64,000 bases of DNA from an uncultured Gammaproteobacteria bacterium (lineage in GTDB: Bacteria; Pseudomonadota; Gammaproteobacteria; Steroidobacterales; Foliamicaceae), in NCBI GenBank assembly GCA_951828235.1, contig OX639965.1, positions 2,894,129 to 2,958,128 of the forward strand, given 5' to 3'. Both the position numbers and the translations under genes were made by a program. Position 1 is the first letter of the stretch; every line of letters begins with the position of its first letter. Below, piece after piece: positions 39,422-56,998 of the stretch. Below the pieces are notes generated by a model. It ran no database searches, had not been told where the DNA came from, and saw nothing but the letters and a program-made list of their open reading frames with translations.

Positions 39422-39737
39422 TGCCCGGGGCCGGACTCGAACCGACACGGGGTTTCCCCCGGGGGATTTTCTTACCCTCTACGGCTTTCGCCGCGGGAGG
39501 CACACGGCGTGCCTCCCTTTGGGGTCTGGACTTTCCCTCTGCCGTATCGCCTTTCGGCGACGTAGGCCGGAGCCGTCAAGTCTCTACACTTTCCCCTTGT
39601 TTCAAAGGGCTTAGCTCGGGATTGCCACCACCTTGCGTGCTGAGGTTTCCCCGAATTTGACTCCTGGTACATCGGACGGTTTCCCGGCCGGCGCTCAATA
39701 TCAAGTCCCCTGCGTATACCTGTTTCGCCACCCGGGC
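39422..39737 (-). tRNA. tRNA-Leu(UAA) interrupted by a group I intron
   Basis: The 5' exon (39737-39703, 35 bases) and 3' exon (39470-39422, 49 bases) join into an 84-base class II tRNA. The acceptor arms GCCCGGG and CCCGGGC pair perfectly and the discriminator is A. The anticodon stem is GGGGA with TCCCC around the loop CUUAAAA, which gives anticodon UAA. The variable arm is GGGG-GAAA-CCCC and the T-arm is GTCGG-TTCGAGT-CCGGC. CCA is not encoded. The intron lies after U34, the same place as in cyanobacterial tRNA-Leu(UAA). Confidence 0.93.
39471..39702 (-). ncRNA. Group I intron (self-splicing type) in the anticodon of tRNA-Leu
   Basis: The 232-base insert starts after U34 and ends in G, as group I introns do. 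Core elements are present in order on the minus strand. P is AATTCGGGGAAACCT (39657-39643). Q is GGCAATCCCGAGCTAAGCCC (39627-39608). R is GTGTAGAGACTTGACGGC (39589-39572). S is near GGGAAAGTCCAGACC (about 39537-39523). The 5' splice-site helix forms between exon CUU and intron GAG with a U-G wobble at the splice site. The pattern is that of the small IC3-like introns known from cyanobacterial tRNA-Leu. No homing endonuclease is encoded. Confidence 0.92.
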
Positions 39738-39804
39738 GTAGGCTAGCAGTTTAGCAAAGCTGGGAGAGAGGCCGAGACGCCCTCTTCCCCAGGTCAGCGC
39801 AGCA

Positions 39805-40026
39805 AGCTCCAATGCACGACGAATATCAGGAAGGGGGCTAGGGAGATGCGCTAAACATCCCTACGCCGATGTCCGGCGAGAAGAGCGCCTGTCCCAGCGC
39901 CATCAGGACGCCGTAGGCCATCTTGTAGACGTGGTGGCCAGCGAGGACAACGATGTAGCGCGCACCCTGTAGCTCTCTATGATGTTTCCATTCCCGACCA
40001 GGTTTTCCAAACCGGATCAGTTTCTT
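39805..40026. pseudogene. Mosaic of fragments of other genes in this window
   Basis: Between the intron-bearing tRNA and abiEi (39738-40154) I find no gene but several fragments. 39809-39840 (minus) resembles the 3' end of the transporter gene (PFLIFVVHWSLLR against PFLILVVLWGLLR). 39863-39914 (minus) matches 42083-42134 of the same gene with three differences in 52 bases. 39907-39985 (minus) matches glgC 18483-18559 with about five substitutions and a 2-base insertion. 39975-39999 (plus) matches 32315-32339 of the TonB receptor with one difference in 25. Neighbouring fragments meet at short shared sequences. Around 40007-40026 there is a weak insertion-sequence-end-like motif. Confidence 0.75.
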
Positions 40027-40095
40027 ACGACACTCCCTGCCCGACTACTTCCCAATCCCGACTGAGTCGGCAGATCGCTGAGCCAAACTACATTG

Positions 40096-40135
40096 AACTA
40101 CCTGTTTTTCACGAAATACGTGAATTTCTGTAGTT
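40096..40135. promoter_or_regulatory. Dyad operator upstream of abiEi
   Basis: TTCACG (40108-40113) and CGTGAA (40119-40124) form an inner inverted repeat around AAATA. AACTAC (40096-40101) and GTAGTT (40130-40135) form an outer one. AbiEi-type antitoxins repress their operon by binding inverted repeats in this position. Confidence 0.6.
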
Positions 40136-40154
40136 TTTATGTATCATCTGCCTC

Positions 40155-40952
40155 ATGGCCTCAAAGCTCTCCCAAGCACGCCAACGCCTGAGTTTCGTAC
40201 TCAGAAACACCGGCCCGACTTTCACCGTTGCCGATGTCACCGATCTCCTGGGTCTGGAGCGCGTCGAGGCGTCGAAAATACTCTCGCGCTGGGCGGCTCA
40301 AGGGTGGGTGGTTCGTCTCCGCCGCGGGCTGTACGCTGCCGTGCCCCTGAAGTCTTCCAGCGGCGAAGTGGTCCTGGAGAATCCCTGGCTGATTGTCCCC
40401 GCCCTGTTCCACGAGGCGTATGTCGGAGGTTGGTCCGCGGCCGAGCATTGGGACCTGACCGAGCAAGTCTTTTCGAGTGTCTGCGTGCTGACCGCCGATA
40501 AGATCCGCAGCAAGGACCAGACTATCGGCGGCATCCGATTCGTTCTGACCTCCATGCGCAAAGACAGGCACTTTGGCACACGATTCGAGTGGGTCGGGAA
40601 CCAGCGGATCGTGGTCTCCGATCCTGAGAAGACCATCGTCGATATGTTTTACAAGCCAAGCCTTGGCGGCGGCATACAGCACGCGACCGAGTGCTTTCGG
40701 AATCTGATCCGCGGCTCACAAGGCAATACGGCAAAGCTGGCCGAATACGCCGAGCGCTTCAGCAGTGGCGCGGTGAACAAGCGGCTCGGGCTCATGGCCG
40801 AAGCGGCGGGCTTGGATGAGTTTGCCGAAAAGCTCTATGCAGGTAAGTCGGCCGGTAATGTTCAACTTGATCCAAGAAATCCCGGCGACAAACTGGTAAC
40901 TCGATGGGGCGTGTGGGTTCCAGCACATTGGGAGCGGTGGGCCCGCGAATGA
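40155..40952 (+). CDS. abiEi: AbiEi-type antitoxin / transcriptional repressor
   Basis: The 265-aa protein has an N-terminal winged helix (FTVADVTDLLGLERVEASKI, then WVVRLRRGLYAAVP). The C-terminal AbiEi domain includes WSAAEHWDLTEQVF and DPEKTIVDMFYKP. AbiE systems are type IV toxin-antitoxin abortive-infection modules. The antitoxin is full length and has a dyad operator upstream. Its stop overlaps the toxin start codon (ATGA), but the toxin is truncated. Confidence 0.9.
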   Translation: MASKLSQARQRLSFVLRNTGPTFTVADVTDLLGLERVEASKILSRWAAQGWVVRLRRGLYAAVPLKSSSGEVVLENPWLIVPALFHEAYVGGWSAAEHWDLTEQVFSSVCVLTADKIRSKDQTIGGIRFVLTSMRKDRHFGTRFEWVGNQRIVVSDPEKTIVDMFYKPSLGGGIQHATECFRNLIRGSQGNTAKLAEYAERFSSGAVNKRLGLMAEAAGLDEFAEKLYAGKSAGNVQLDPRNPGDKLVTRWGVWVPAHWERWARE

Positions 40953-41314
40953 TCGACGAGAGCGAAATCCACGAGGTAGCCAACGAAACCGGCCTCAGCC
41001 CGTACGTAATCGAGAAGGACTACGTGATCGGCTGGGTATTGGCCGGCATCTACAACCATCCCGACATTCGAGAAGCCTGGGTCTTCAAGGGCGGGACGTG
41101 CCTGAAGAAGTGCTTCTTCGAAACCCATCGGTTCTCGGAAGATCTTGACTTCACGTTGCGTGACCCGGCGCATCTCGACGAGGTTTTCTTGGCCCAGGTT
41201 CTTGCCGAAGTCGCGGATTGGGTGTACCAGAATGCCAGATTGAACAAGCACAAGAACAAGACAGGATGGGACTGTCCGGGAAGAATCGGGTGGCTAGCCA
41301 GAGCTAACTGGTAG
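40949..41314 (+). pseudogene. abiEii: Truncated AbiEii nucleotidyltransferase toxin
   Basis: The first 113 or so residues follow the AbiEii/AbiGii family. VFKGGTCLKK carries the GGT nucleotide-binding motif (residues 48-50). RFSEDLDFTL carries the metal-binding acidic pair D65/D67. The usual protein is near 290 aa; this one turns into unrelated sequence (WLARANW) and stops at residue 121. Just after the break lie two GGCTAGCC palindromes (about 41290-41321), which may mark the recombination point. The polymerase-like core is incomplete, so toxicity is unlikely. Confidence 0.85.
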
Positions 41315-41421
41315 GCTAGCCGCATCGGCGAAAAGCTCCGGCTATTCAGTCGAACGAATTGAATGTCTGTCCAAAGTGCTAGCTGCAATATCTCACCGAC
41401 AATTGGAAAGGGCCCTCGCCT

Positions 41422-42780
41422 TCAGGCAAGAACATCGCGCAGCAGCCCCCAAAGGACGACCAGTATCAGGAAGGGCGCCACCCACAGCAGCGCGCGCCAT
41501 ACTCGAAGGAGCGATCCGTCCAGGGCCGTTTCGCTGTGTGCCGAGGCAATCGACCAGAAATAGCCGAGGAACACGGCCAGTAGCAGGGCGTTGACCGGAA
41601 GCAGAAGGTTGGCCACAAGGAAGTCGACGATCTGGAACAGGCCCATCTCGCTGAGCACGCCGCCGAACGGCTTCACGTCGGCCCATACGTTGAACGAGAG
41701 CACGAAGACGAGGCCGACCGCCCAGGTCAGAAGGCCCATGAAAAGGGTGGCAAGCGGCCGTGAGAGGCGCGTATCGCGCGACAGCCACGCCACCGCCGGC
41801 TCGATCATGCCGAATCCCGTCGTGATTGCGGCCAGGCTCAGCATCACGAAGAACAGGGTCCCCAGCACCACTCCGCCGGGCATGCCCGCGAATGCTACCG
41901 GCAGGGTTTCAAAGATCAGCCCGGGCCCGCTGTTGGCTTCAAGGCCCACGGCGAAAACGATCGGGAAGATCGCCATACCCGCGAGCAGGGCCACCATCGA
42001 GTCGGCTCCCGCGATGATGGCTCCCGCTCGTGGCAGCGAAACTCGCTGCGGCACGTAAGCCCCGTAGGTGATGAGCATGCCCACGCCGATGGCCAGCGAG
42101 AAGAGCGCCTGTCCGAGCGCCATCAGGACGCCGTCGAGCGTCAAAGCGGAAAAGTCGGCGCTGAACAGGAACGCCATTCCCCTGCCGAAGTCGCCCGCGA
42201 TCGCGGCCCAGGCCACCAGCACGAGCAGCAGGGCGAGAAGGCCGGGCATCATCAGCTTGCTGGCCCGCTCCAGGCCCTTGCGGACGCCGCCGGCGATGAC
42301 CGTCACCACGATGGCGATGAACAGACCATGCCAGAACATGAGGCGCAGGGGATTGCTCAAAAGCGCCCCGAACAGTTCCTGCGATCCTTCGGCGCTGATG
42401 CCCCGGAACGTGCCCTGCGCCGCCAGCAGCGTGTAGTTGAGCGACCAGCCGGCGACAATGCTGTAGTAGGTGATGCCCACCAGCGGTACGAGGATCGACA
42501 GCCAGCCGATGGCCACCCATGCGCCGCTACGCCCCTCGCGCGACGCCACTTCGCGCATCGTGTAGACGGCATTTCGGCCACCGCGACGGCCCAGGGCCAG
42601 TTCGCCGATCACCAGCGGCAGGCCCAGCAGCAACACCCAGCCGACGTAGACCAGCACGAAAGCGCTGCCGCCGTTGCTGCCGGCAATGTAGGGGAAGCGC
42701 CACAGGTTGCCCAAACCTACGGCGGCGCCCACCGAGGCCATCAGGAAGCCCCGCGTGGAGGACCAGGTTTCGGTCTTCAT
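41422..42780 (-). CDS. Neurotransmitter:sodium symporter family transporter
   Basis: The 452-aa inner-membrane protein has the family N terminus ASVGAAVGLGNLWRFPYIAG followed by NGGSAFVLVY, which is the sodium- and substrate-binding region of helix 1. It has about 11-12 membrane helices, with GITYYSIVAGW in helix 3. Such proteins import amino acids or related compounds with sodium. The ATG at 42780 is chosen because it places MKTETWSSTRG directly before helix 1; an upstream start at 42822 would read through a hairpin. It follows the TonB receptor gene on the same strand, suggesting shared uptake of one substrate. Confidence 0.93.
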   Translation of the reverse strand: MKTETWSSTRGFLMASVGAAVGLGNLWRFPYIAGSNGGSAFVLVYVGWVLLLGLPLVIGELALGRRGGRNAVYTMREVASREGRSGAWVAIGWLSILVPLVGITYYSIVAGWSLNYTLLAAQGTFRGISAEGSQELFGALLSNPLRLMFWHGLFIAIVVTVIAGGVRKGLERASKLMMPGLLALLLVLVAWAAIAGDFGRGMAFLFSADFSALTLDGVLMALGQALFSLAIGVGMLITYGAYVPQRVSLPRAGAIIAGADSMVALLAGMAIFPIVFAVGLEANSGPGLIFETLPVAFAGMPGGVVLGTLFFVMLSLAAITTGFGMIEPAVAWLSRDTRLSRPLATLFMGLLTWAVGLVFVLSFNVWADVKPFGGVLSEMGLFQIVDFLVANLLLPVNALLLAVFLGYFWSIASAHSETALDGSLLRVWRALLWVAPFLILVVLWGLLRDVLA

Positions 42781-42791
42781 GGCAAGAGAAT

Positions 42792-42820
42792 GCCACTCCC
42801 CCGCAGACCGGGGGAGTGGC
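42792..42820. terminator. Strong hairpin between TonB receptor and transporter
   Basis: GCCACTCCCCC and GGGGGAGTGGC pair perfectly over 11 bp around a 7-base loop. There is no T-run on either side. It may attenuate transcription from the receptor gene into the transporter gene or stabilise an mRNA end. Confidence 0.5.
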
Positions 42821-42856
42821 AAGAGGTTCCCCTCCTCTTAAAGGGGATGAATTGGT

Positions 42857-45286
42857 TTAGCCGCCGAACGCCTGCGTTACCGCAAGGCCGATGGTGCGGG
42901 GACGGCTCGTAACCTTGTAGGTCGGCTGTCCGCCACCAACGCCGATTGCGATGTCCGGCTGCTCGTCGGCGATGTTCTCAAGGAACAGCTGCAGGTCCAG
43001 CCCACGATCCTGGTTGCTGAATCCCAGGCGGGCGTTGAAGAGCTGGAAGGAGTCCTTGAAGCGGTTGTTGCCCGCGTCGGGCCGCAGTTGCGTCCAGGAA
43101 CTGCCCTTGTGGCTGCCTTCCACGCGCACGAAGGCGTCCCAGCCGGCGATGGGCGGTGTGAAGTTGTACTGCGCCATGAAGCTTGCGGTCATCTCGGGAA
43201 TCTCCGGAATCAGGTCGCCGGCCTTGCCCGGTGCGACTACCGACTCGGACACCTGGTCCTCCGAGAGCTCTCGCTTGCCGAGATAGGTCACCGCCGCGGT
43301 GAGGTCCAGGTTGCCGATGCGCCCGATGATCTCGGTCTCAATCCCGTTCACCTCGGCCTCACCGGCGTTACCGATAAAGCCGAATGCGCCGGTCGGGTCC
43401 TGGCCGGCCACCTGCAGGTTCTCCCAGATCATGAAGAACGCCGCATTGTTCCATTGCAAGGCGCCGCCCATCCACTGCGACTTCACGCCGATTTCGTAGC
43501 TGGTGACCTGGTCGGCCTCGAACAGAGGCGGTACACCGGCCTCCGCCGACGCAGGGTTGTTGATGATGCCGGGATTGTTGGTGCCGCCCAGCCGGTAGCC
43601 CTCGGACCGCGTCCCGTAAACCGTCAGCTCCTCGTTGGGCTGCCAGCGCAGAACGACCCGGGTGGTGATCTCGTCGTCATCGATTTCAAGTTCGTCCGTG
43701 CGGCCGTCCGGCGGGTTCGGCGCGAAAGCCGCAAAATTGAAGACCGTGTCGCCGATCTCGAACTGCTCCACCTTGAACCAGCGTATGCCTACGCCCAGTT
43801 CCCACTGGTCGTTGAACTGGTAGCTGGCGTCGGCGAACACCGCGCTCTCCGTGATGTCCTTGTCGGCGAAGCGGGCGAAAACGCAGGGGTGGCATCCGGG
43901 AATGCCGGCGCCTGGTTCGCTGGTCGGCGGGATGGTGTACGGCGTGCCCGGATCGTAGGTCATGCCCATGGTGTTGATGACCGGAACGAAGCTTTGGAAA
44001 ACGGTATTCCGCTCGCGCGTGAAAACGCCGCCTACCCACTGCAGCGCGCTATCCCCGGCCGACGTCAGCCGCACTTCGAACGCATCCTGTTCCAGGCTCT
44101 GCCGCTGGTCCGTCAATGCGTAAATCAGGTCGGCCCGCTCGGTGAAGAAGTTGAACGATTCGCTGCTGTTGTTCTGGTAGAGGAAGGTAATGATCCAGGT
44201 GGAGTCGAATTTGTACTCGAAATCACGCTCATACCGCGAAGCGCTGGCCGTCAGCGTGGCGAAGCCCAGGTCCAGGTCGCCAGTGACGCTGAAGATGTTC
44301 TGCTCGTCGGGCTTGAAGGTCTGCGCGTAGTCTCCCACCAGGAACTCGCCGGTGTGGAAGTGCGTGAACGCTGCGACAGCGTCCTTGTCGCCGTTGTCGC
44401 TTACGCCCCGCTCGCCGTACGTGTCGTACGGGTGATAGCGGTTATCGCCCGCAAGGTAGCGGTCCTGCCACCAGTACTGGGCGTTCAGCGTAAACGTATC
44501 GCTGGGCCGCCAGAGGAAATTGGCCCGCAACCCGCGCGTATCGACGTAGTTGAAGTCCTCGAGGTTGAGGCAGGCAAGTTCCACGCCCGGATCGCGGGGG
44601 TCTTCCGCCGCGTTCACCGGACGGCAACGGTTGTTCTCCAGCCAGCCGGCATCCTCGACGTTGTAGGCCACCAGGCGCATTCCGATTGTTTCGGACAGGG
44701 GCAGATTGACCACGCCGTGGCCGCTCCAGTTGTAGTCATTGGAGTGCGACGTCTGACCGAGCTGACCGCCCACCGTGGCGCTGAATGCTTCCAGGTCCGG
44801 CTTGGCGGTGATGAAACGCATGGTGCCGCTTTGCGAATTGGCGCCGAAAGTCGTGCCCTGCGGTCCGCGCAGCGCCTCGATCCGTTCCATGTCGAACAGC
44901 TTCAGGTCGGTAGTCTGCGAACCGCTGTTGGAACTGGCGCTCTGGATGCCGGGCAACGGCACCTCGTCGTAATACACGGCGACCTGCTGCTGGCCGGCGG
45001 ACTGGATGCCGCGCATGACGTAGCGGCGCTGACCGGGGCCGGTGTCGAGGAAAGTCAGGCCCGGCACCTGGTAGGCAAAGTCCTCGAAATCAAGCACCTG
45101 CATGGCCTGCAGGGTATCCGCGGTGAATGCGGTGACGGTGATAGGCACATCCTGAAGGCGTTCCGCGCCAAACTTACGGGCGGTGACCACGATCTCCTCG
45201 ATCGCTCCTTCTGAATCCTGCGCGTATCCGGGGACGCCAATCAGCAACATTGCCGCGGCTCCCAACAAAGTAATACGAAGCCTCAT
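42857..45286 (-). CDS. TonB-dependent outer-membrane receptor
   Basis: The 809-aa protein has a signal peptide (MRLRITLLGAAAMLLIGVPG), then EEIVVTARKFGAERLQDVP and a plug domain with MRGIQSAGQQ and MERIEALRGPQGTTFGANSQ. A large beta barrel ends near RTIGLAVTQAFGG. A GGAGGG site precedes the ATG at 45286. It belongs to the FecA/BtuB-like receptors abundant in oligotrophic marine bacteria. The neighbouring transporter, amidohydrolases and esterase suggest uptake of an amide- or ester-containing compound, but the substrate is not readable. Confidence 0.93.
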   Translation of the reverse strand: MRLRITLLGAAAMLLIGVPGYAQDSEGAIEEIVVTARKFGAERLQDVPITVTAFTADTLQAMQVLDFEDFAYQVPGLTFLDTGPGQRRYVMRGIQSAGQQQVAVYYDEVPLPGIQSASSNSGSQTTDLKLFDMERIEALRGPQGTTFGANSQSGTMRFITAKPDLEAFSATVGGQLGQTSHSNDYNWSGHGVVNLPLSETIGMRLVAYNVEDAGWLENNRCRPVNAAEDPRDPGVELACLNLEDFNYVDTRGLRANFLWRPSDTFTLNAQYWWQDRYLAGDNRYHPYDTYGERGVSDNGDKDAVAAFTHFHTGEFLVGDYAQTFKPDEQNIFSVTGDLDLGFATLTASASRYERDFEYKFDSTWIITFLYQNNSSESFNFFTERADLIYALTDQRQSLEQDAFEVRLTSAGDSALQWVGGVFTRERNTVFQSFVPVINTMGMTYDPGTPYTIPPTSEPGAGIPGCHPCVFARFADKDITESAVFADASYQFNDQWELGVGIRWFKVEQFEIGDTVFNFAAFAPNPPDGRTDELEIDDDEITTRVVLRWQPNEELTVYGTRSEGYRLGGTNNPGIINNPASAEAGVPPLFEADQVTSYEIGVKSQWMGGALQWNNAAFFMIWENLQVAGQDPTGAFGFIGNAGEAEVNGIETEIIGRIGNLDLTAAVTYLGKRELSEDQVSESVVAPGKAGDLIPEIPEMTASFMAQYNFTPPIAGWDAFVRVEGSHKGSSWTQLRPDAGNNRFKDSFQLFNARLGFSNQDRGLDLQLFLENIADEQPDIAIGVGGGQPTYKVTSRPRTIGLAVTQAFGG

Positions 45287-45442
45287 GGCGATGTCCCTCC
45301 AAAAACTGGGTCTTGGATTCTAGCACGCGGCCAAAAGTGCCGTAATATCGAAAATCAACAGTGTTGCAAAGCCTTTCCCGGCTTTTCGGTCGGGGCGCAG
45401 GAAGCCTGATACACTGCCGGAAGAGTCTTGAGGAGGGCCATC

Positions 45443-46810
45443 ATGTCACGCACCCTACGCCTCCTTTTCGCCGTTGGTTTTCTGTCGCTTGCCGTTCCCG
45501 CTTCCGCGGCCGACTACAACCGCCCTCCAGATTACCGGCCGTTTTCCGGCTACACGCTGATCCATGCCGGCACCCTGCTGCCGGTGCCGGGCGAAGCGCC
45601 GGCAGACCGGCAGACCGTGATCGTGCGCGAAGGACATGTGATTGCGATCGAAGACGGCTGGATTGAGCAATGGTCCGGCGACGCTGAGGCGCCCGTCAGG
45701 GTGGTCGATCTGAGCGACAAGTTCGTGATGCCTGGCTTTATCGACCTGCACGTTCACCTGCTGTCGCAATCAGGCGGTGACCGCAAGGGCGAGTTTGTCG
45801 AGCGGTCCGACTCCTATTTCGCCCTGCAGGGGTCGCAGTTCGCGCGCTGGACACTGGAGGCCGGGTTTACCACCGTGCGCGACCTCGGCGCCCGCGGCCA
45901 GGCCATCTTCGCATTGCGAGACGGCGTGCGCGACGGGCTGGTTCCCGGCCCCCGGATCCTGGCGGCCGGACAGGCCATTACGCCCAGCGGCGGTCACGGC
46001 GACATTCACGGCTATCGCACCGAAATCCTTCAGGCTCTGCCGGCCCTGGGCACCTGCGACGGTTCGGACGATTGCCGCAGGGCCGTGCGCCAGATGGTCA
46101 AGCGGGGCGCCGACGTGATCAAGGTGACGGCGACCGGCGGCGTATTGAGCGAAACCGCGACCGGAACCGGCCAGCAGTTCACTCAGGAAGAATTGAACGC
46201 AATTGCGGAAACCGCGCATTTGCTGGGCCGCAAGGTCACCGCGCATGCTCACGCCAAGGAAGGCATAGAGGCGGCCTTGCGGGCGGGCTTTGATTCGATC
46301 GAGCATTCCATGTGGGCCGACGAGGGAACGATGGAACTGTTCCTGGAAACCGGCGCGTGGATGGTGCCCACCGTTTATCCCATTACCGCGGTCGGCGACA
46401 CGCCCGAGAAGATGAAGGCGGGTCCTTTCGGCAACCTGCCGCCCCCGGTCATGGAGAAACTGCTGCAGCTCGGTCGCCAGCCCAAGGACATGGTTGCGCT
46501 GGCGCACAGCATGGGCGTGAAGGTTGCCCTGGGCACCGACTCCGCTGTGTCGCCGCACGGTGAGAACGCCAACGAATTCATCGAATACGTCAACGCCGGC
46601 ATGACGCCCATGCAGGCCCTGATGTCGGGCACGGTTCACGCCGCGGAAGCCACCGGCATCGCCGATCAGACGGGCGACCTGCAGCCGGGCAAGGCCGCCG
46701 ACCTGGTCGGGCTGGCGGCCAACCCGCTTGAAGACATCAGCGCGGTGCTGGACGTGCGCTTCGTAATGCGCGACGGCATCGTATTCAAACACCTGGAGAA
46801 CCAAGAATGA
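45443..46810 (+). CDS. Secreted metal-dependent amidohydrolase (imidazolonepropionase-like)
   Basis: The 455-aa protein has a signal peptide (LLFAVGFLSLAVPASAA). The amidohydrolase metal ligands are visible: IDLHVHLL, a likely carbamylated lysine in DVIKVTATGG, histidines in VTAHAHAKEG and SIEHSMW, and the aspartate in LGTDSAVSPHG. The C terminus has GDLQPGKAADLVGL. Members hydrolyse cyclic amides or dipeptides such as Xaa-Pro. The ATG at 45443 follows GAGGAGGG. It is divergent from the TonB receptor and directly upstream of a second member of the family. Confidence 0.92.
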   Translation: MSRTLRLLFAVGFLSLAVPASAADYNRPPDYRPFSGYTLIHAGTLLPVPGEAPADRQTVIVREGHVIAIEDGWIEQWSGDAEAPVRVVDLSDKFVMPGFIDLHVHLLSQSGGDRKGEFVERSDSYFALQGSQFARWTLEAGFTTVRDLGARGQAIFALRDGVRDGLVPGPRILAAGQAITPSGGHGDIHGYRTEILQALPALGTCDGSDDCRRAVRQMVKRGADVIKVTATGGVLSETATGTGQQFTQEELNAIAETAHLLGRKVTAHAHAKEGIEAALRAGFDSIEHSMWADEGTMELFLETGAWMVPTVYPITAVGDTPEKMKAGPFGNLPPPVMEKLLQLGRQPKDMVALAHSMGVKVALGTDSAVSPHGENANEFIEYVNAGMTPMQALMSGTVHAAEATGIADQTGDLQPGKAADLVGLAANPLEDISAVLDVRFVMRDGIVFKHLENQE

Positions 46811-46831
46811 CTTGCATGAACCCGCCCGGGA

Positions 46832-46850
46832 GAGAGGGCACTGCCCTCTC
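46832..46850. repeat. 9-bp hairpin between the two amidohydrolase genes
   Basis: GAGAGGGCA and TGCCCTCTC pair perfectly around one base. The stretch 46811-46869 also contains GGTCCCGCCCTCC, so it looks like intergenic GC-rich repeat sequence rather than coding sequence. Confidence 0.4.
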
Positions 46851-46869
46851 GGCGGTCCCGCCCTCCACG

Positions 46870-48225
46870 ATGGCGAGACGCCTTCGCTCCCGTGTCTACG
46901 CCACACTGCTCTTTGCATTTGCAGCGGCTTCCACGGCCGGCGCGCAAGACCTCCTGATCGAAAACGTGACGCTGCTGGACGGCACAGGTGCGCCGGCCGT
47001 TTCCGGCGCTTGGATAGCGGTGGAGGGCGGGCGCATCAGCGCAATAGACGACGCCCCGCTGGAGGCCCCGGACGGCGCCAACGTGCTGAATGGCGAGGGC
47101 CGCTACCTGATGCCGGGCATGGTGGACATGCACATTCACTTGCGCGGCGGCGTGCGCACCCCGCCGGAAGGGCTGCAGGAACCGCCCTCCCCGGATTTCG
47201 AAGCCGGCCTGCAGGCGCTGCACGGCTACTTGTACAGCGGCTTCACCCTGCTCTACGACGCCGGGAATGACCCGGATTTCATCCTGGAACTGAGGAGGCA
47301 GGAACGCGCGGGAGAAATCGAAAGCCCCCGTATTTTCGCAACCGGCGGAATCGTGACCTATCCGGGCAGCCATGGCAGTTCCGCCGGCGCCACGCTGGTC
47401 GATGACTGGCCCGAGGCCAAGCCGCTGCTGGACGCGCACATCGCGCGCCAACCCGACGTGCTCAAGCTCACCTACGAGGAGCGCGGCTGGGGCTCGCGGC
47501 CCACCATCCCGCGCCTGCCCGTGGACCTGATGCAGAGCATCGTGGAGTACTACAACGAGCGCGGCATCCGCACCACCGTGCACACCTCCAGCGAACTGCG
47601 TGCCCGCCAGGCCATTTTCGCCGGCGTGGATACGCTGGCGCACCCCATCATCCAGGGCCCGGTTACCGAGGAATTCGCCCGCCTGATGGCCGCCAAGCGC
47701 GTTCCCATGGTTACCACGCTCACCATCGGCGAGAACTATGCGCGGCTGGTCGAACAGCCCGAGTACCTGGATCAGCCGCTCTATCAGGCCACGATCGACC
47801 CTGACGAAATCGAGACACTCAAGACCGAGACGCGCGCGGAATACGAAGCCCGCCCCTGGACCTGGTGGATGAAGGTCATGACCGAAATCGCCCAGGAAAA
47901 CGTGCGCATGGTCCACGCCGCGGGCGGCGTGCTGGTGGCGGGATCGGACCAGACCACCGGACCTGCGGCGCACCGCGAACTCGAACTGCTGCAGGACGCC
48001 GGAATCGCCCCCTCCGACATCATCCCGATCGCCACGCTGAACGGTGCAGTTTTCCTGGGGCGCGAGAAGGACCTGGGCTCAATCGAAGTGGGCAAACTGG
48101 CCGACATGGTCCTGCTTTCCGCCAACCCGGCCGAGGACATCAACAACGCCAAGGCCATCGTGGAAGTCATCAAGGGCGGCCGCGTCATCGACCGCTCCGC
48201 CCTGAGCCTCCCCGTCAACCGCTAA
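46870..48225 (+). CDS. Secreted metal-dependent amidohydrolase, second copy
   Basis: The 451-aa protein has a signal peptide (YATLLFAFAAASTAGA). Metal-site motifs are VDMHIHLRGG, DVLKLTYEERG (lysine), TTVHTSSE and TLAHPII (histidines) and VAGSDQTTG (aspartate). It ends with IEVGKLADMVLLSANPAED. I chose the ATG at 46870 because the signal peptide follows at once and the preceding stretch looks like a hairpin-rich gap. A start at 46807 overlapping the first amidohydrolase stop is possible and would be translationally coupled. The two amidohydrolases differ clearly, so they probably act on related but different substrates. Confidence 0.88.
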   Translation: MARRLRSRVYATLLFAFAAASTAGAQDLLIENVTLLDGTGAPAVSGAWIAVEGGRISAIDDAPLEAPDGANVLNGEGRYLMPGMVDMHIHLRGGVRTPPEGLQEPPSPDFEAGLQALHGYLYSGFTLLYDAGNDPDFILELRRQERAGEIESPRIFATGGIVTYPGSHGSSAGATLVDDWPEAKPLLDAHIARQPDVLKLTYEERGWGSRPTIPRLPVDLMQSIVEYYNERGIRTTVHTSSELRARQAIFAGVDTLAHPIIQGPVTEEFARLMAAKRVPMVTTLTIGENYARLVEQPEYLDQPLYQATIDPDEIETLKTETRAEYEARPWTWWMKVMTEIAQENVRMVHAAGGVLVAGSDQTTGPAAHRELELLQDAGIAPSDIIPIATLNGAVFLGREKDLGSIEVGKLADMVLLSANPAEDINNAKAIVEVIKGGRVIDRSALSLPVNR

Positions 48226-48254
48226 CACGGGTAGGCGCACCAGGCAGGTTACCT

Positions 48255-49802
48255 CTAGTCGGCAGGTGTAGCGGCGCTGCGTATTCTTTGCCGGTAACGG
48301 GCTTCGATGAAATCGAGCCGCTCCCGGGCGATGCCCCGGCGCACTTCGTCTCTAATGCCGAACACAAGCCAGCGGTCGTCGTCCTCCCGGTATTCGGGCC
48401 ATTGCAGGCGCGCCTTCCGGTTGGGATTGCCGTTTCGCGCAAAGTCGAGCCAATAGCCGAGCAGGCGGCCCGCCAAGGCCCGCTGCCCGGCATCGGGTAA
48501 ATCCGCTCCGGAGAAAAGCAGCCTGCGGTCGTAGCCGTGCGGCGCGCCCGGCGAGTCGTACGGGGGGCCGAAGACGGGCAGATCCAGATAGTAAAGCCAT
48601 GCCGGCGAGCTCTTGCGCGCCATTCCCAGCGCTAGCGTCCGGGCGGCAAGCAGATAGCGATTGTCGCCAAACAGGCGCTTGACGCCGATTTCCGGGGACT
48701 TGTCGAAGTCGTCCCGGTAGAGCGTCCGCGCGGCTGGATAATCCACGTCCCAGATGCGCACGTACTCCTCCACCGATATCCCCGAAACCGGCATGATCAT
48801 TCCTTCGAAGCTGTTTCCGCCGGTCATTACGGGGACGTCATGCTGTTCGCCCGCCAGGAACAGAATACCGGGTTCTTCACGCAGCGTCGCGCCATCGACC
48901 AGCGGCAGGTGGAAACCCTCCACCGCTCTCATCAGCGCCAGGGCGTCCAGGGCCCGCAATTCTTCGGCCGTTTCCGCATCGGGAGAAACGCGGTCAATCA
49001 GTTGCCGCGCCAGTAACTCCGCGCTTTGCGCAGGATTCAGGTACATGTCCAGCGGAGCCGGCGCGGGAGCGTTGACGGTGCGCGGCAGGGCCCAGGTGCC
49101 ATAGCCGCTCTGCGCGATCGCGCCGTGGAACAAGCCTTGCGCCGCGTCGTTCGCCAGCAGCATGCTCACCGCCATCCCACCCGCGGACACGCCGAAGACA
49201 GTGACCCTGCCCGGATCGCCCCCAAAGGCGGAAATGTTGTCCCGCACCCATTCCAGCGCCGTGACCATGTCCAACAGCCCAAAGTTGGCTACCGGGCCCT
49301 CAAGCGCCGGATGCCCGAAAAATCCGAGCGGTCCCAGCCGGTAGTTGATCGAAACGAAGACAACGCCCCGGGCCGCGAACAGTTCGCCCTGCACATCGCC
49401 GGAGCCCGCGACGAATCCGCCGCCGTGAATCCAGACCATGACGGGACGGGCGTTGTCGTCAACTGCGGGCGTCCAGACATTGAGCGTCAGGCAGTCTTCG
49501 TTCGCCGGCCTGGCGCCCCTTGACTGCGGACAAGGCGGCCCGAAATCCAGCGCCTGCCGCACGCCTTCATGCTTCGGCGCCGCCCGCGGCGGACGCCACC
49601 GCCAATCGCCCGCCGGCGACAGACCATAGGGGATGCCGCGAAAGGCATGAGCGCCGTTCTCAAGGGTTCCTTCATACGCGCCCCGCGGCGCCAGAACAAC
49701 GTTCTCGGCAGGTTCCGCACCTGCCTCGAGGGCGGGAAGCAAAAACGCGCAAAGCAGAAGGCGGGCGCCCGCCTTGCGGCTACGCGGAACATGCATTCTC
49801 AC
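48255..49802 (-). CDS. Secreted type-B carboxylesterase
   Basis: The 515-aa protein has an N-terminal signal peptide (LLLCAFLLPALEAGAE). The carboxylesterase/cholinesterase fold shows the oxyanion stretch VMVWIHGGGFVAGSG, the nucleophile elbow FGVSAGGMAVSM, a likely acid residue in GGNSFEGM and the histidine in APHGYDRRLLF. EDCLTLNVWTP is the family disulphide-loop motif. It is convergent with the amidohydrolase pair, 29 bases apart. The ester substrate is unknown. Confidence 0.92.
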   Translation of the reverse strand: MRMHVPRSRKAGARLLLCAFLLPALEAGAEPAENVVLAPRGAYEGTLENGAHAFRGIPYGLSPAGDWRWRPPRAAPKHEGVRQALDFGPPCPQSRGARPANEDCLTLNVWTPAVDDNARPVMVWIHGGGFVAGSGDVQGELFAARGVVFVSINYRLGPLGFFGHPALEGPVANFGLLDMVTALEWVRDNISAFGGDPGRVTVFGVSAGGMAVSMLLANDAAQGLFHGAIAQSGYGTWALPRTVNAPAPAPLDMYLNPAQSAELLARQLIDRVSPDAETAEELRALDALALMRAVEGFHLPLVDGATLREEPGILFLAGEQHDVPVMTGGNSFEGMIMPVSGISVEEYVRIWDVDYPAARTLYRDDFDKSPEIGVKRLFGDNRYLLAARTLALGMARKSSPAWLYYLDLPVFGPPYDSPGAPHGYDRRLLFSGADLPDAGQRALAGRLLGYWLDFARNGNPNRKARLQWPEYREDDDRWLVFGIRDEVRRGIARERLDFIEARYRQRIRSAATPAD

Positions 49803-49823
49803 GCCGGGGCCGTCAATGCGGTT

Positions 49824-50999
49824 CTATTCCCCGTGTGCCGCGAAGAAGGCGTGCATGCGGCTCATCGCTTCCTCAAGCCGCTCATAGGGCTCGGCACCGA
49901 AACACACGCGCAGGTGCCCCGCCCCTGCCTGCCCGTAGAAAGACCCTTCCTCCACGCAGACGCTGGTCTCCTTCAGCAGTTCCCGGGCCAGGGCGGCGTC
50001 ATCCCAGCCGGTCTCCGAGATGTCCGGGAAGGCGTAGATACTGCCTTCCGGCGCCGGACAGCGCACGCCCGGCATCGCGTTCATTCTTTCCACCACCAGG
50101 TCGCGGCGGCGGCAGTCCTCCCGGACCATCTCCGCCACCGCCTCCTGCGAACCCGACACGGCCGCCCGGCCACCCTCCTGGATGAACACGTTCACATGCG
50201 CGATGTCGTTCTTCGATATCTTCAGCATCGCGTCGATGAACCTCTTCGGCGCTGCGGCGTAGCCCATTCGCCAGCCGTCCATGGCGTAGGCCTTGGTGAA
50301 GGCAAAGTGGGTAATCGTTCGCTCCCACATACCCGGCAGCGAAGCGATGCTGACATGCCGCGCGCCGCCGAATACGATCTGCTCGTAGACCTCGTCGGAC
50401 ATCACCAGCAGGTCGTGTTCGATCGCGATGTCCGCCAGTTCCTGCAGTTCTGCTCGCGTATAGACCCGTCCGGTGGGGTTTGCCGGGTTGACCAGGATGA
50501 TCATCCGCGTGCGCGGACCCAGGCGTTCGCGGATTGCAGCCCCGTCAATCGCAAAGTCCCGCGACCGATCCAGCGGCGCCGTAACAACCACGCCGCCCGC
50601 CAGCTCGATCTTGTTGACGTGCTGCGGGTAATACGGAGACAGCAGCATGACCTCGTCGCCCGGATCCAGGGCGGCCATGCAGGTGATGTACGCGCCGTGC
50701 GTCAGTCCGCTGGTCACCAGGATCTCGTTCGGAGCCGCCTCGATGCCGTTCCGCGAGGCCAGCTTTTCCGCGAGCGCCCGCCGAAAAGGCTCGTTGCCCA
50801 GGAAGTCCCCGTAATGCACCATCCCGCCGTCCAGCGCCGCCTTGCAGGCTTCCTTGATGTGCGCGGGCGTATCGAAGTTGGGCATGCCGACCTCCAGGTG
50901 GATGACATCGACCCCCCGCGCCATCAGCGGGAGGGCCTCTTCGTACATGCCGAAGCTCTTCTCCGAGCTCTGCACGATTCGATCGGCAGGCCATTTCAT
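49824..50999 (-). CDS. PLP-dependent class I/II aminotransferase
   Basis: The 391-aa protein shows VIHLEVGMPNFDTP, ILVNPANPTGRVYT and the PLP-lysine motif FAFTKAYAMDGWRMGY; LRVCFGA near the C terminus supplies the carboxylate-binding arginine. The ATG at 50999 gives the usual N terminus (MKWPADRIVQSSEKS); an in-frame start at 51071 is less likely. It follows the sulfatase on the same strand. The amino-group donor cannot be read from the sequence. Confidence 0.9.
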   Translation of the reverse strand: MKWPADRIVQSSEKSFGMYEEALPLMARGVDVIHLEVGMPNFDTPAHIKEACKAALDGGMVHYGDFLGNEPFRRALAEKLASRNGIEAAPNEILVTSGLTHGAYITCMAALDPGDEVMLLSPYYPQHVNKIELAGGVVVTAPLDRSRDFAIDGAAIRERLGPRTRMIILVNPANPTGRVYTRAELQELADIAIEHDLLVMSDEVYEQIVFGGARHVSIASLPGMWERTITHFAFTKAYAMDGWRMGYAAAPKRFIDAMLKISKNDIAHVNVFIQEGGRAAVSGSQEAVAEMVREDCRRRDLVVERMNAMPGVRCPAPEGSIYAFPDISETGWDDAALARELLKETSVCVEEGSFYGQAGAGHLRVCFGAEPYERLEEAMSRMHAFFAAHGE

Positions 51000-51067
51000 A
51001 CGCAAGTCCGTGGTTTCGTTGTCAGTGATTATGCGTTGCGGGACGCGACGGCGAAATACGCTGCGCC

Positions 51068-52657
51068 TCAACGGTCCCGGAAAACCGCGTCCGGGTGCTC
51101 GACAAAAGGTTCGCGCCAGCCGGGAAACCGGTCGCTGAAAATTTCGTTTCGGCCGTAGTGACGGCCGAGCAGAATCGCCTTGGCCGATCCCCCATTCCAG
51201 AGGTCGTATTTCGGCGCCGAATACCGCGCGAAGAATTCCGTCAGACGCCGATCCAGTTCCGCCACCATGTCCGCGTGCGCCGGATCGTCGATGAGATTGT
51301 GCTTCTCTTCGGGATCCGCAACCAGGTCAAACAGCGTGTGAGGCTCGGCGGTATCGAACCTTTTCATATATTTCCAGCGCCCGGCGCGCACAACACGAAC
51401 AGTAACGAACTCGAAGAAGGCGGCATTGTCCCATTCCGGATCCGCGCCTTCGAGCATGGTGGCAAAGCTCCGGCCCGCGGAGTCCCGAATCTCAAGCTCC
51501 CCGAGCCCCAGGTACTCCAGCAGAGTCGGAAACATATCCACCTGGTTGATGAACTCCTCGCGGACCATTCCCTCCGGCACGCGTCCGGGCTGAGAGAACA
51601 TCAGCGGCACCTCCATGTTGACGCCGTGCACGGTGAACGGAAAGCTCCATGACGTATTGCCCCAGAGGCCGCCGTGCCCGAAGCGCGAACCCTGGTCGGA
51701 CGTGTAGATCACCAGCGTGTTCTCGCGCAGCCCCTGTTCGAAAAGGGAATCCAGCAGTCTCCCCACGCCGTCGTCCACCATCGTGGTTTCCGCCGCGGTA
51801 TTGATCATTGCAACGGGGTTGTTGATCGCGTTGATCGCCCGCCAGGCCGTGGTCCCTTCGCGCACCATTTCACCGGTCGGGCTGCGGCCGCGGGCCCAGG
51901 CTTCGAGATACGGATGAATGGGCTCGTGCGGCATCGAAGGGGTTGCCTGGCGGTAGCGCTCCGCGTGCCGGTTGCGCGGCGGCAAAAGCACCGTCGGAGG
52001 CAGCATGTACGGGCCGTTGTACGAGAGGTACAGGAAGAAGGGTTCATCCGCGCCCTGGCGCTGCTCGATGAACTCGATCGCCTTGTCCGTCCAGAAATCC
52101 GTCAGGTGCTGCTCGACGCGATAGCGCCGGCCGTTGTCGATGACTTCCTGGTCGTAAAAGGTGGTGGTATGGCCCGACGGGAAGGTCACCCACGAGGAGA
52201 AGCCGAGCTGCGGACGTTCGTGCCGTCCCAGGTGGTACTTGCCGACCAGGCCGGTGACATAGCCCGCGTCCGCCAGCGTTTGCGGCAGGTTGCGGAACTC
52301 CTCAATCGCCGACCAGCCTTCCAGTTCCGGCTGGCCGGGCAAGGCCACGTGTATCCCCGTCTGCGAAGGCATCAGGCCTGTAAGCAGAGCGGCGCGCGTG
52401 GGCGAACATACGCCGCTGGCCGCGAAGGCGTTGCGGAACAGGACGCCCGAACGGGCCAGCGCGTCGATGTTGGGCGTGGCGATCTCGCGGTTGCCGTAGG
52501 CTCCCAGCAGGCGCGCCGGCTGGTTGTCGGCAATGATGACGATGACATTCGGACGCTGTGCCGGGGTCGTTTCGGCGGCGGCCATACCCGGCAACTGGAC
52601 GGCAATAAAGAGTGCGAGACCGGCGAACGATCCGGCGGCTTTGACAGTGGTCGGCAT
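51068..52657 (-). CDS. Secreted sulfatase with formylglycine site
   Basis: The roughly 529-aa protein has a signal peptide (SFAGLALFIAVQLPGMAAA). The sulfatase signature CSPTRAALLTG contains the cysteine converted to formylglycine, and VGKYHLGRH follows. At the first metal site, where sulfatases usually have two adjacent aspartates, the sequence reads IIADNQPARLLGAYGN, with Asn in second place. The C-terminal part (DLVADPEEKHNLID) is typical of arylsulfatase-type enzymes. I chose the ATG at 52657 because it places the signal peptide at the N terminus; 52735 is the longer alternative. Sulfated algal glycans are likely substrates by analogy. Confidence 0.9.
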   Translation of the reverse strand: MPTTVKAAGSFAGLALFIAVQLPGMAAAETTPAQRPNVIVIIADNQPARLLGAYGNREIATPNIDALARSGVLFRNAFAASGVCSPTRAALLTGLMPSQTGIHVALPGQPELEGWSAIEEFRNLPQTLADAGYVTGLVGKYHLGRHERPQLGFSSWVTFPSGHTTTFYDQEVIDNGRRYRVEQHLTDFWTDKAIEFIEQRQGADEPFFLYLSYNGPYMLPPTVLLPPRNRHAERYRQATPSMPHEPIHPYLEAWARGRSPTGEMVREGTTAWRAINAINNPVAMINTAAETTMVDDGVGRLLDSLFEQGLRENTLVIYTSDQGSRFGHGGLWGNTSWSFPFTVHGVNMEVPLMFSQPGRVPEGMVREEFINQVDMFPTLLEYLGLGELEIRDSAGRSFATMLEGADPEWDNAAFFEFVTVRVVRAGRWKYMKRFDTAEPHTLFDLVADPEEKHNLIDDPAHADMVAELDRRLTEFFARYSAPKYDLWNGGSAKAILLGRHYGRNEIFSDRFPGWREPFVEHPDAVFRDR

Positions 52658-52826
52658 ACGCCGGGAGAATACCCGCTTGCAATTGGTGGGTGCAAAGGGG
52701 GCGCGGTCGCTTTCAAGGAGGGCAGTATTCCTCATCTGGCACCGCCTGAAATTCTACTCAGGTAAGTCTTTTCCAAGGTGCATATTGTGTACATAATTCT
52801 CCAACCCAAAGCATTAGAATGGCTTT

Positions 52827-54092
52827 GTGATCCGTCGCATCCAAGCTTTGAATTTTCGGTGCCTGCGGCACGTAGACGTAGCTCTAGACCGCTTTCAGGT
52901 ACTTGTTGGACCTAATGCAAGTGGGAAGAGCACGCTTTTTGATGTTGTTTCATTCCTCGCAGACTTGGTTCGAGACGGACTTGAAAGTGCGATAGAAAGG
53001 CGCACAAGCAACTTCCAAGACCTTGTCTGGGGTCGCCCAAACGAGCAACTCGGGTTTGAAATGGCACTTGAATTTGACGTGCCAGATGACCTAAAGAACA
53101 GCCTACCGCCAGACAAATCATTCGAGATTTTTCGATATGAAGTTGCGATAGAGGAGAACAAGAAGGGTGTAGCTATTCGCTCTGAGCGCGGACTGCTTCT
53201 TCCCAAGAGGGAAGTCGCTAGGCCACAAAAGGAGATTTTCCCATTACCCCTAAGCCCAGTTACCACGATACTTCTGGGCGGTCGGCAGCGCGGTGGCAGA
53301 TCAATAGTCAGCAAGTCAAGCGAGGGCAAGGACAACTACAACATCGAGGTTTCTCCAAAGTCTGGTAAGGGTTGGACAGTTAGTATCTCCTTTGGTCCAC
53401 ACCGCTCTGCACTGGGTAATCTGCCCGAGTCACCCGAAAGGTTTCCTGTTGCAACAAGAGTCAAGCGACTGCTTGAAACCAAGGTAAAACGGCTTTTCCT
53501 GGACAGCGCAAAGATGCGGTCGTCAAGTCCGCCTGAACTAAGACGAAATGGCCTGTCCTTTGACGGCGGCAACCTTCCTTGGGCAATAGAAGAGTTAAGG
53601 CAAAGCAATTGTGAGAGCTTTTCTGAGTGGCTCGCGCATGTCCAAACAACATTGGACGACATAAGGGACATTCGAGTAATCGATCGCGAAGACAACCGGC
53701 ATGCTCATCTTGCACTTCAATACGGCGCAGGGGTCGAAATTCCTTCTTGGACGGCTTCCGACGGAACCCTCCGATTCTTGGCATTGACAGTAATTCCATA
53801 TCTTGAAGAAACTGGAAACATTTACCTTCTTGAAGAGCCGGAAAATGGGATTCATCCCTTGGCACTTCAGGCTGTATACGACTCTCTTGCCTCAGCGTAC
53901 GATTCCCAAGCCCTGATTGCTACACATTCGCCGGTTTTCTTGAGCTTGGCTAGGCCTAGTGAGATTCTGTGTTTCGCAAAAGACGAACAAGGCGCTACGG
54001 ACATTATTCGGGGCGATGATCACCCGATGTTGCGGGATTGGCAGGAAACACAAGATTTGAGCCTGCTGTTTGCAACGGGTGTCATAGGCTAA
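52827..54092 (+). CDS. AAA ATPase of the AbiLii/OLD-like ABC class (putative defence)
   Basis: The 421-aa protein has an N-terminal RecF/SMC-like start (RRIQALNFRCLRHVDVAL), Walker A GPNASGKST at 28-36, an ABC signature-like SDGTLRFLAL at 311-320, Walker B IYLLEEPENGIHP at 332-344 and the switch histidine ATHSPVF at 365-371. It resembles the stand-alone ATPases found in phage-defence loci. G+C content and codon choice are clearly lower than in the genes on both sides. The partner gene starts four bases after its stop. Biological role is inferred, not shown. Confidence 0.85.
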   Translation: MIRRIQALNFRCLRHVDVALDRFQVLVGPNASGKSTLFDVVSFLADLVRDGLESAIERRTSNFQDLVWGRPNEQLGFEMALEFDVPDDLKNSLPPDKSFEIFRYEVAIEENKKGVAIRSERGLLLPKREVARPQKEIFPLPLSPVTTILLGGRQRGGRSIVSKSSEGKDNYNIEVSPKSGKGWTVSISFGPHRSALGNLPESPERFPVATRVKRLLETKVKRLFLDSAKMRSSSPPELRRNGLSFDGGNLPWAIEELRQSNCESFSEWLAHVQTTLDDIRDIRVIDREDNRHAHLALQYGAGVEIPSWTASDGTLRFLALTVIPYLEETGNIYLLEEPENGIHPLALQAVYDSLASAYDSQALIATHSPVFLSLARPSEILCFAKDEQGATDIIRGDDHPMLRDWQETQDLSLLFATGVIG

Positions 54093-54096
54093 GGGT

Positions 54097-54726
54097 GTGG
54101 ACAGGGATTTAGTCGTTCTAGTAGCAGACCGCCACATGGAGCGAGCATTCAAAGGCCTCTTAAGCCAGCAGGAGAAGCTTGCCATTCGGAACATTGACTA
54201 TCAAATATTGACACATCCCGGACATGACCCTGGGTGTCGAACACAAGCGGTCGAGTTGTTGAGGCCATTCTTGAGTAGCAGCAATTACGCAATCGTAGCC
54301 TTTGACTATCATGGTTGCGGTTCCAGTTTGATGCCTGCAGAAGTCCAAAGCAAAGTAGAAAGGCTACTATTCGTGAATGGATGGGAAAAACGCTCCCATG
54401 TGGTTGTCATTGATCCTGAACTGGAGGAATGGGTATGGGCGCCAAGTCCCCATGTATCAAGAGCGCTTGGTTGGGGAGATAACTTTGGCAACCTCAGGCG
54501 GTGGCTTCATGATCGGGGCCTATGGCCTTCAGGACGATCCAAGCCTATTGATCCAAAACGAGCTATGGAAACAGCGATGCGCAATGCACCAGGCGATAAG
54601 CGTCCGCGGCGCTCGTCAACAATATTCGAACGCATTGCCAAGTCTTCAGACCCAATGAACTGTTGTGATTCTGCTCTCTCGCAGCTACGAGAAACACTGC
54701 AGGCCTGGTTCCCGCGAGGAGACTAG
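54097..54726 (+). CDS. Partner protein of the ATPase (possible nuclease-like defence component)
   Basis: The 209-aa protein starts at a GTG four bases after the ATPase. It has VLVADRHMERAFKGLL at the N terminus, HPGHDPGC at 40-47, VAFDYHGCG at 67-75 and VVVIDPELEEWVWAPSPHV at 102-120. The acidic and histidine-rich motifs arranged around beta strands suggest a Toprim-like metal-dependent fold. I recall similar proteins beside ATPases in methylation-associated defence loci (MAD4-like), but cannot confirm this here. Lower G+C content matches the ATPase, so the two moved together. Confidence 0.7.
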   Translation: MDRDLVVLVADRHMERAFKGLLSQQEKLAIRNIDYQILTHPGHDPGCRTQAVELLRPFLSSSNYAIVAFDYHGCGSSLMPAEVQSKVERLLFVNGWEKRSHVVVIDPELEEWVWAPSPHVSRALGWGDNFGNLRRWLHDRGLWPSGRSKPIDPKRAMETAMRNAPGDKRPRRSSTIFERIAKSSDPMNCCDSALSQLRETLQAWFPRGD

Positions 54727-54759
54727 AAGGCAATCAATAGCCGTAATCTTGAGAGTCCT

Positions 54760-55830
54760 ATGAGCGACACGATCCAGGAACCCGTCATCGCCAGGTACAA
54801 GCCGTACTACGCTGAGCTTGAGAAGGGCAAGCGGTACTTCTGGTGCGCCTGCGGGCGGTCGAAGAGCCAGCCCTGGTGCGACGGCTCGCACAAGGGCACG
54901 GGCATCGCTCCCCTTCCCTACCAGGCGCAGGAAGACGGCGAGGAAGTCCTGTTCTGCGGTTGCAAGCGCACTTCCGACGTCCCCTTCTGCGACGGCAGCC
55001 ACAACAACCTCCGCGAAAGATACGAAACCGACGACCCCTTGAGCCCGGAGAACCAGGCAGTTCCTCTGGCCGAAGAAGCGTCGCCCGGACGCGTGGTGCT
55101 GGATGGAAGCTGCCGGGTCCACCGGGTCGGACGACTGCCCGACGAAGGCGCGGGCACCGTGGAGGTGCGCAAGCTGATCAGCCCGGAGGACGGCGCCGTG
55201 CATCAGTCGCAATTTCACCTGACGCTCCCGCCCGGCTATTCGCAGGCCATGGAGTTTCCGCGGCGCCAGGTGCTCCTGTTCGTGACCAGCGACTCGGGCG
55301 AACTCGCCATCGGGTCCCGCAAGTTTGCGCTCGATCCCTGCACCGGCGCATTCGTACGACCCGGGGAAGCCTTTGCGCTGACCGCCCCGCCCGACCGGCC
55401 GATGGGCGTCTATGCAAGCGTTTTTCCGCATGCTGACGGGCCACAGTGGCGGCGCGGCCTTGCCGACTACTTCGATTCCCACTATCCGGACCGCACCATC
55501 GCCACGGACAGGGACAAGGCCACTCCGATGGCCGACCGGTTCTTCCAGGTATTGATCGACAAGACCCAGGGATTCGAGAACGGCGCTCAGTTCATCGGCG
55601 AGATTCCGCTGTCGAAGGCCGTCGCCCACCGGCACCTCTACGAGGAAACGCTGATCGTGGTTTCCGGCGAGGGGTGTTTATGGACGGAGAACGTCAAGAC
55701 GTCCGTAGGCACGGGCGACGTGATCTTTCTGCCGCCGAAGCAGCGGCACTCGCTGGAGTGCACCGGCAAGGACGGCATGCTGGTCGCCGGGGTGATCTTT
55801 CCTGGCGACAATCCTTCAATCAACTACTGA
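54760..55830 (+). CDS. Double CDGSH iron-sulfur domain fused to a cupin
   Basis: The 356-aa protein carries two CDGSH iron-sulfur sites. The first is WCACGRSKSQPWCDGSH (C29, C31, C40, H44) and the second is FCGCKRTSDVPFCDGSH (C66, C68, C77, H81). Each binds one 2Fe-2S cluster through three cysteines and a histidine. The C-terminal part (about 240-350) is a cupin barrel with AHRHLYEETLIVVSGEG and FLPPKQRHSLECTG, giving plausible metal ligands. The fusion suggests redox sensing or oxygenation coupled to electron supply. No signal peptide. Substrate unknown. Confidence 0.88.
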   Translation: MSDTIQEPVIARYKPYYAELEKGKRYFWCACGRSKSQPWCDGSHKGTGIAPLPYQAQEDGEEVLFCGCKRTSDVPFCDGSHNNLRERYETDDPLSPENQAVPLAEEASPGRVVLDGSCRVHRVGRLPDEGAGTVEVRKLISPEDGAVHQSQFHLTLPPGYSQAMEFPRRQVLLFVTSDSGELAIGSRKFALDPCTGAFVRPGEAFALTAPPDRPMGVYASVFPHADGPQWRRGLADYFDSHYPDRTIATDRDKATPMADRFFQVLIDKTQGFENGAQFIGEIPLSKAVAHRHLYEETLIVVSGEGCLWTENVKTSVGTGDVIFLPPKQRHSLECTGKDGMLVAGVIFPGDNPSINY

Positions 55831-56800: not shown

Positions 56801-56874
56801 TGGAGGCCAGGGCCGGAATTGAACCGGCGTCCACGGATTTGCAGTCCGCTGCATCGCCACTCTGCCACCTGGCC
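56801..56874 (-). tRNA. tRNA-Cys(GCA)
   Basis: A 74-base tRNA with acceptor GGCCAGG paired to CCTGGCC, anticodon loop CTGCAAA (anticodon GCA), T-arm GCCGG-TTCAATT-CCGGC, discriminator U and encoded CCA. All arms pair. Confidence 0.96.
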
Positions 56875-56923
56875 CGGCTGTTCGGCAAAAGACGCCGGAC
56901 GGCGCTGGTTATTGCCGAAAAAA

Positions 56924-56998
56924 TGGAGCGGGAAACGGGACTTGAACCCGCGACCCCAACCTTGGCAAGGTTGTGCTCTACCACTGAGCTATTCCCGC
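56924..56998 (-). tRNA. tRNA-Gly(GCC)
   Basis: A 75-base tRNA with acceptor GCGGGAA paired to TTCCCGC, anticodon GCC inside CTTGCCAAGG and encoded CCA. It is 49 bases upstream of tRNA-Cys on the same strand and probably co-transcribed with it. Confidence 0.96.

Follow-up and report, generated by a model that had tools for sequence, protein, structure and literature searches.

The trnL(UAA) intron of cyanobacteria and plastids is inserted after U34 of the tRNA. A 231-nt intron in the same tRNA gene was reportedly described by Vepritskiy et al. in 2002 from a deep-subsurface Pseudomonas, and the core of the Azoarcus-type tRNA-Ile(CAU) intron is similar to that of the intron analyzed here. According to a published report, Thiomargarita nelsonii and Beggiatoa 'BOGUAY' have interrupted tRNA-Leu-TAA genes as well (PMC4853749). 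Among bacterial introns with endonuclease genes, one example for tRNA hosts in a 2007 compilation is a PD-(D/E)XK enzyme in tRNA-fMet (PMC1995217).

The window, a stretch of 64,000 nucleotides from the genome of an uncultured gammaproteobacterium (contig OX639965.1), contains an interrupted gene of this kind. ARAGORN with introns allowed predicts a tRNA-Leu(UAA) gene split by a 232-nt intron after gene position 35, that is, after U34; run without introns, the program misses the gene. The joined exons (84 nt) refold as a tRNA-Leu(UAA) cloverleaf, and the junction (...CUU / AAAA...) yields the UAA anticodon loop, with the insertion site between U34 and A35 (Table 1). An earlier note, made from the letters alone, had placed the gene at exactly these boundaries, 39422-39737, and had described the well-formed 84-base tRNA and the insertion after U34; all this is reproduced here, and the gammaproteobacterial character that it assigned to the host is supported as well.

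Table 1. Features of the interrupted tRNA-Leu(UAA) locus, in window coordinates, and of related introns
Feature	Position	Strand	Evidence or remark
Interrupted tRNA-Leu(UAA) gene	39422..39737	-	ARAGORN intron mode; in 9/9 genomes of the family
5' exon, 35 nt, ends ...GGGGACUU (U34)	39703..39737	-	ARAGORN
Group I intron, 232 nt, GAUAUUGAG...GGGUAAG, last base G	39471..39702	-	ARAGORN; RF00028 E=1.2e-7; covariation
3' exon, 49 nt, starts AAAAUCCCC; CCA not encoded, next bases GCA	39422..39470	-	
P1, exon CUU paired with internal guide GAG; U-G wobble at splice site	39694..39705	-	U-G in 68/68 introns
P3, 5' strand GGAGUC; 3' strand 39569-39574	39659..39664	-	Covarying pairs A-U/G-C
P7, 5' strand GACUU; 3' strand AAGUC 39529-39533	39578..39582	-	Read from sequence
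P8 hairpin CCUACG...UACGG	39543..39565	-	Pairs from 68-intron alignment
P6a hairpin, short loop without ORF	39593..39609	-	Site of the HNH gene in relatives
tRNA-Cys(GCA) and tRNA-Gly(GCC)	56801..56998	-	ARAGORN; 17 kb upstream of the Leu gene, same strand
Antisense HNH gene in P6a loop (relatives)			L130, L131, L133, L136, L138, L145, L148, L156, L157, L161, L162, L170, L184, L192, L207

At the gathering cutoff of 50, the Rfam model RF00028 (Intron_gpI) gives no match. Under an E-value threshold, the P3-P7 core is detected at 39572-39661 on the minus strand (36.1 bits, E=1.2e-7), a partial match to model positions 53-154 of 253 that scores below the gathering cutoff; this is the Rfam search that the earlier note had proposed. 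The minimum free energy of the gene is low relative to dinucleotide shuffles (z=-4.3), and the comparative support is much stronger than this score. We aligned 68 distinct introns of the main lineage, drawn from the order and from named contigs, each with the final three exon bases on its 5' side and the initial six on its 3' side. The RNAalifold consensus of this alignment comprises 54 pairs, with 96.1% of the cells paired and two-sided changes in 31 pairs, values that pertain to a structure derived from the same alignment and include the relatedness among the introns. Helices P2, P3, P4, P5, P6a, P8, P9 and P9.1 are seen in this consensus, and the weight of the covariation, as judged from the aligned sequences, rests on two-sided changes in P3, P4, P6a, P8 and P9 to P9.1. 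The core motif WGTGTAGAGACTTGACGGC is present in every main-lineage intron, and P7 is the guanosine-binding helix. The U-G pair at the 5' splice site is invariant and the window intron ends in G; along with a P3-P9 core that shows compensatory changes, these features identify the 232-base insert as a group I intron, as the note had proposed on the basis of the core elements, the terminal G and the wobble pair. The P8 motif is similar to that reported for the Pseudomonas D0715 intron (CCUA.G...UA.GG), and the layout resembles that of the Azoarcus intron, which would be a candidate trait of subgroup IC3. There is no endonuclease ORF within the 232 nt of the window intron; such genes are present only in its relatives.

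The tRNA searches (46 places) found no second tRNA-Leu(UAA) in the single-contig genome of 3,114,442 bases (3.11 Mb). The intact leucine tRNAs of this genome read CAA, UAG, CAG and GAG, so that the split gene is the sole one for UAA, and UUA codons are in use (10 among 7,531 codons in 14 ORFs of the window). Because no other gene supplies this tRNA, the transcript must splice. As we infer from established group I chemistry, the internal guide GAG would pair with the exon CUU, and free guanosine bound at P7 would attack the U-G wobble site, directly 3' of U34; once released, U34 would in turn attack after the terminal G of the intron, joining the exons into the mature tRNA, to which a nucleotidyltransferase would afterwards add CCA. 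Two nucleotidyltransferases of the PolyA_pol type are encoded in the genome. A dead copy, that is, a degenerate intron in a pseudogene tRNA, could be suspected from the missing CCA at the 3' end and from the RF00028 score below the cutoff. This reading is, however, extremely improbable: 11 of the 45 other tRNAs checked with ARAGORN do not encode the full CCA either, the core and the splice sites are conserved in nine genomes with compensatory changes, and the gene is the only tRNA-Leu(UAA) gene of a genome in which UUA codons are used. The pseudogene reading was therefore rejected on the grounds of sole gene copy, conservation and covariation, and the search for a second gene, which the note had named as a check, came out in favor of a live locus.

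Within the order (196 genomes), full-length or nearly full-length matches to the intron are found in the family of the window's genome (hereafter f1) and in three other families (f6, f11 and f15). All nine sampled f1 genomes carry the intron, and no intronless f1 genome was found. Across 21 genomes of the order, p-distances between introns track those of rpoB (Mantel r=0.68, 0 of 5000 permutations), and the mean distances within f1 are nearly the same (0.077 for rpoB, 0.079 for the intron). The f1 introns form one clade with a support of 100/100, and those of f6 and of f11 form clades as well. In several relatives, congeners of intron-bearing species among them (G161, G163, G080, G121, G025), ARAGORN confirmed tRNA-Leu(UAA) genes that have no intron, and parsimony on the rpoB tree implies 8 changes between presence and absence. 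Given the occupancy of the entire sampled family and the divergence that tracks rpoB, the intron appears to be old and mainly vertically inherited, with repeated loss or gain between sister species.

The surroundings of the gene point to a conserved locus. In 24 intron-bearing loci, tRNA-Gly(GCC) and tRNA-Cys(GCA) lie upstream of the leucine gene within ~2.3 kb, and in 6 further ones, tRNA-Cys alone is upstream; this Gly-Cys-Leu order corresponds to glyW-cysT-leuZ of E. coli. Since the Gly-Cys pair of the window is encoded on the same strand as the Leu gene but 17 kb upstream, an insertion or rearrangement has apparently broken up the operon (39703-56801, a gap of ~17 kb).

Beyond the order, the core motif was scanned over the GTDB species genomes and found on at least 119 contigs, mostly of Gammaproteobacteria. 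Among the 80 motif contigs listed, 63 are labelled Gammaproteobacteria and 54 read directly as tRNA-Leu(UAA) with an intron; most of the remaining ones have the same exon junctions with an ORF inside. The hosts among the contigs listed include Peristeroidobacter soli, Thiohalophilus thiocyanatoxydans, Thiohalomonas, Acidiferrobacteraceae, Porticoccaceae, Thiotrichaceae and Muproteobacteria. The motif occurs in 15 of the 369 genomes of an even sample of the class and, in a phylum sample of 397 genomes, only in the window's own genome. As far as the motif scan indicates, tRNA-Leu(UAA) introns are widespread but patchy in Gammaproteobacteria, scattered through the class and no rarity. The suggestion of the earlier note that this is an unusual place for a proteobacterial intron is contradicted both by these contigs and by the Thiomargarita and Beggiatoa genes (PMC4853749).

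Several matches call for separate mention. A match in Acidimicrobiaceae (L202), which has the core motif without the exons, was dismissed as a chance match. The ARAGORN calls of tRNA-Phe(GAA) for L088-L091 and of tRNA-Gln(CUG) for L096 are boundary slips, the junctions reading tRNA-Leu(UAA) and tRNA-Ile(CAU), respectively. Outside Proteobacteria, the same core motif occurs in a Leu tRNA intron of Lewinella and of another Bacteroidia MAG (L134, L176), where the splice boundary appears to be shifted by one base; the intron of L176 contains an HNH-family-like ORF. In one genome (G069), tRNA-Leu(UAA) and tRNA-Leu(CAA) are each interrupted by a group I intron, both at the corresponding position (L095, L073). 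On the 1.26-Mb plasmid of the alphaproteobacterium Tritonibacter mobilis (L254), the same core motif belongs to a group I intron in an apparent tRNA-Thr(UGU). Gordonia phage Daredevil (L255) has a 238-nt group I intron in a phage tRNA-Lys(UUU), and further phage matches (Vibrio, Bacillus) span only ~50 nt of the core; according to a 2014 review, the phage introns then known were all in protein-coding genes (PMC3984707).

In at least 15 related tRNA-Leu(UAA) introns, mostly of ~680-740 nt, the P6a loop holds an ORF of 134-158 aa in antisense orientation (Table 1). These ORFs match HNH endonuclease families (phrog_10822 in PHROG, E=2.5e-47; HNH_3 in Pfam), and truncated HNH remnants are found in three more introns (L166, L197, L198). 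Introns with an HNH gene are dispersed over the intron tree, with 9 changes. A second branch of tRNA-Leu(UAA) introns is found on conjugative plasmids of Bradyrhizobium and on plasmids of E. coli, Klebsiella, Acinetobacter and Aeromonas. On the latter plasmids, a complete tRNA-Leu(UAA) gene with a ~212-nt group I intron adjoins aac(3)-II type genes (aac(3)-IId type) in each of the six records examined for this linkage (L248, L249, L251, L252, L253, L304). The E. coli form is present in 635 of 5,426 complete genomes, with 589 plasmid and 81 chromosomal locations, and is unannotated, with no tRNA feature, in the records inspected. A literature search of partial coverage returned no paper on HNH-bearing or plasmid-borne tRNA-Leu(UAA) relatives, which may be new.

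These observations bear on the question of vertical persistence or horizontal transfer that the earlier note had raised, and the answer is mixed: within the order, intron and host mainly share their descent, with losses or gains between sister species, and a separate lineage is carried by plasmids. Support is weak for several of the deep branches in the intron tree, which leaves room for old transfers between families. In particular, homing, or recombination at the tRNA locus, might have brought the intron into f1 from a different lineage of Gammaproteobacteria, such as an f15-like donor, with vertical descent only thereafter. The f1 intron is indeed nearest to that of f15 (78% over the gene; mean p-distance 0.25, compared with 0.27 for f6 and 0.31 for f11) while the rpoB distances of f1 to these three families are about the same, and the scatter of HNH-bearing relatives in the intron tree points in the same direction. 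Such differences are small for a 230-nt sequence, however, the stem of the f1 introns is long in both trees and all f1 genomes found carry the intron, so that a donor of this kind is rather unlikely. Current mobility of the window intron in its species, with an endonuclease supplied in trans, could be imagined from the HNH genes of its relatives but is quite improbable, considering that the introns of the window's family lack an ORF and that their divergence follows the host genomes. There is perhaps an even chance that the window intron is a settled, ORF-less representative of a homing family of tRNA-Leu(UAA) introns that extends through the class, some members of which have an antisense P6a HNH gene and go through cycles of gain, decay and loss, with a sister lineage on conjugative plasmids that spread in clinical Enterobacteria next to aac(3)-IId.

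We favor, with high confidence, the reading that the genome's only tRNA-Leu(UAA) gene is interrupted in its anticodon loop by a group I intron, predicted to be self-splicing, that lacks an endonuclease gene and has been passed on together with the locus from a time before the radiation of the genus. This reading is favored by the ARAGORN boundaries, the RF00028 core match, the two-sided changes in 31 of 54 pairs, the U-G pair and the terminal G; by the sole UAA gene, the UUA usage and the presence of the intron throughout the sampled family; and by the f1 intron clade, the correlation with rpoB and the Gly-Cys-Leu order in relatives. The Rfam score below the curated cutoff, the patchy presence in the order and the weak deep branches of the intron tree were counted against it. 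The anatomy, conservation and covariation of the window intron, its sole-copy host gene and its congruence with the host tree are direct observations.

Among the known systems, Thiomargarita and Beggiatoa are likewise gammaproteobacterial hosts with the same tRNA gene interrupted, a likeness by description; the respective paper provides neither a secondary structure nor an intron type (PMC4853749). Thiomargarita also has three 23S rRNA introns, like the window's genome (PMC4853749). In the latter, the 23S gene of the rRNA operon (4,672 nt, at ~767-772 kb of C1; L071:982-5653) contains three group I introns (RF00028 80, 31 and 30 bits) and two LAGLIDADG ORFs of ~160 aa each. The cyanobacterial and plastid trnL(UAA) intron shares the tRNA, the patchy distribution and the variable P6 region (PMC4476775), and is likened to the window intron by these traits. 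The Azoarcus-type tRNA-Ile(CAU) intron is likewise a small tRNA intron but differs in the tRNA and the guide, and two tRNA-Ile(CAU) introns of the window's order (L096, L097) are more distant in the intron tree. The Pseudomonas intron reportedly shares the class and the host gene and has a similar length and P8 motif. Altogether, the comparison corrects the view that, a few rare cases apart, tRNA-Leu(UAA) introns belong to cyanobacteria: in Gammaproteobacteria, they occupy a locus of the glyW-cysT-leuZ type in many hosts and include endonuclease-bearing and plasmid-borne members, and the many pairs of sister species make vertical persistence versus transfer of tRNA introns testable. The window intron belongs to an already known type, of which its locus is an ordinary, well-preserved example.
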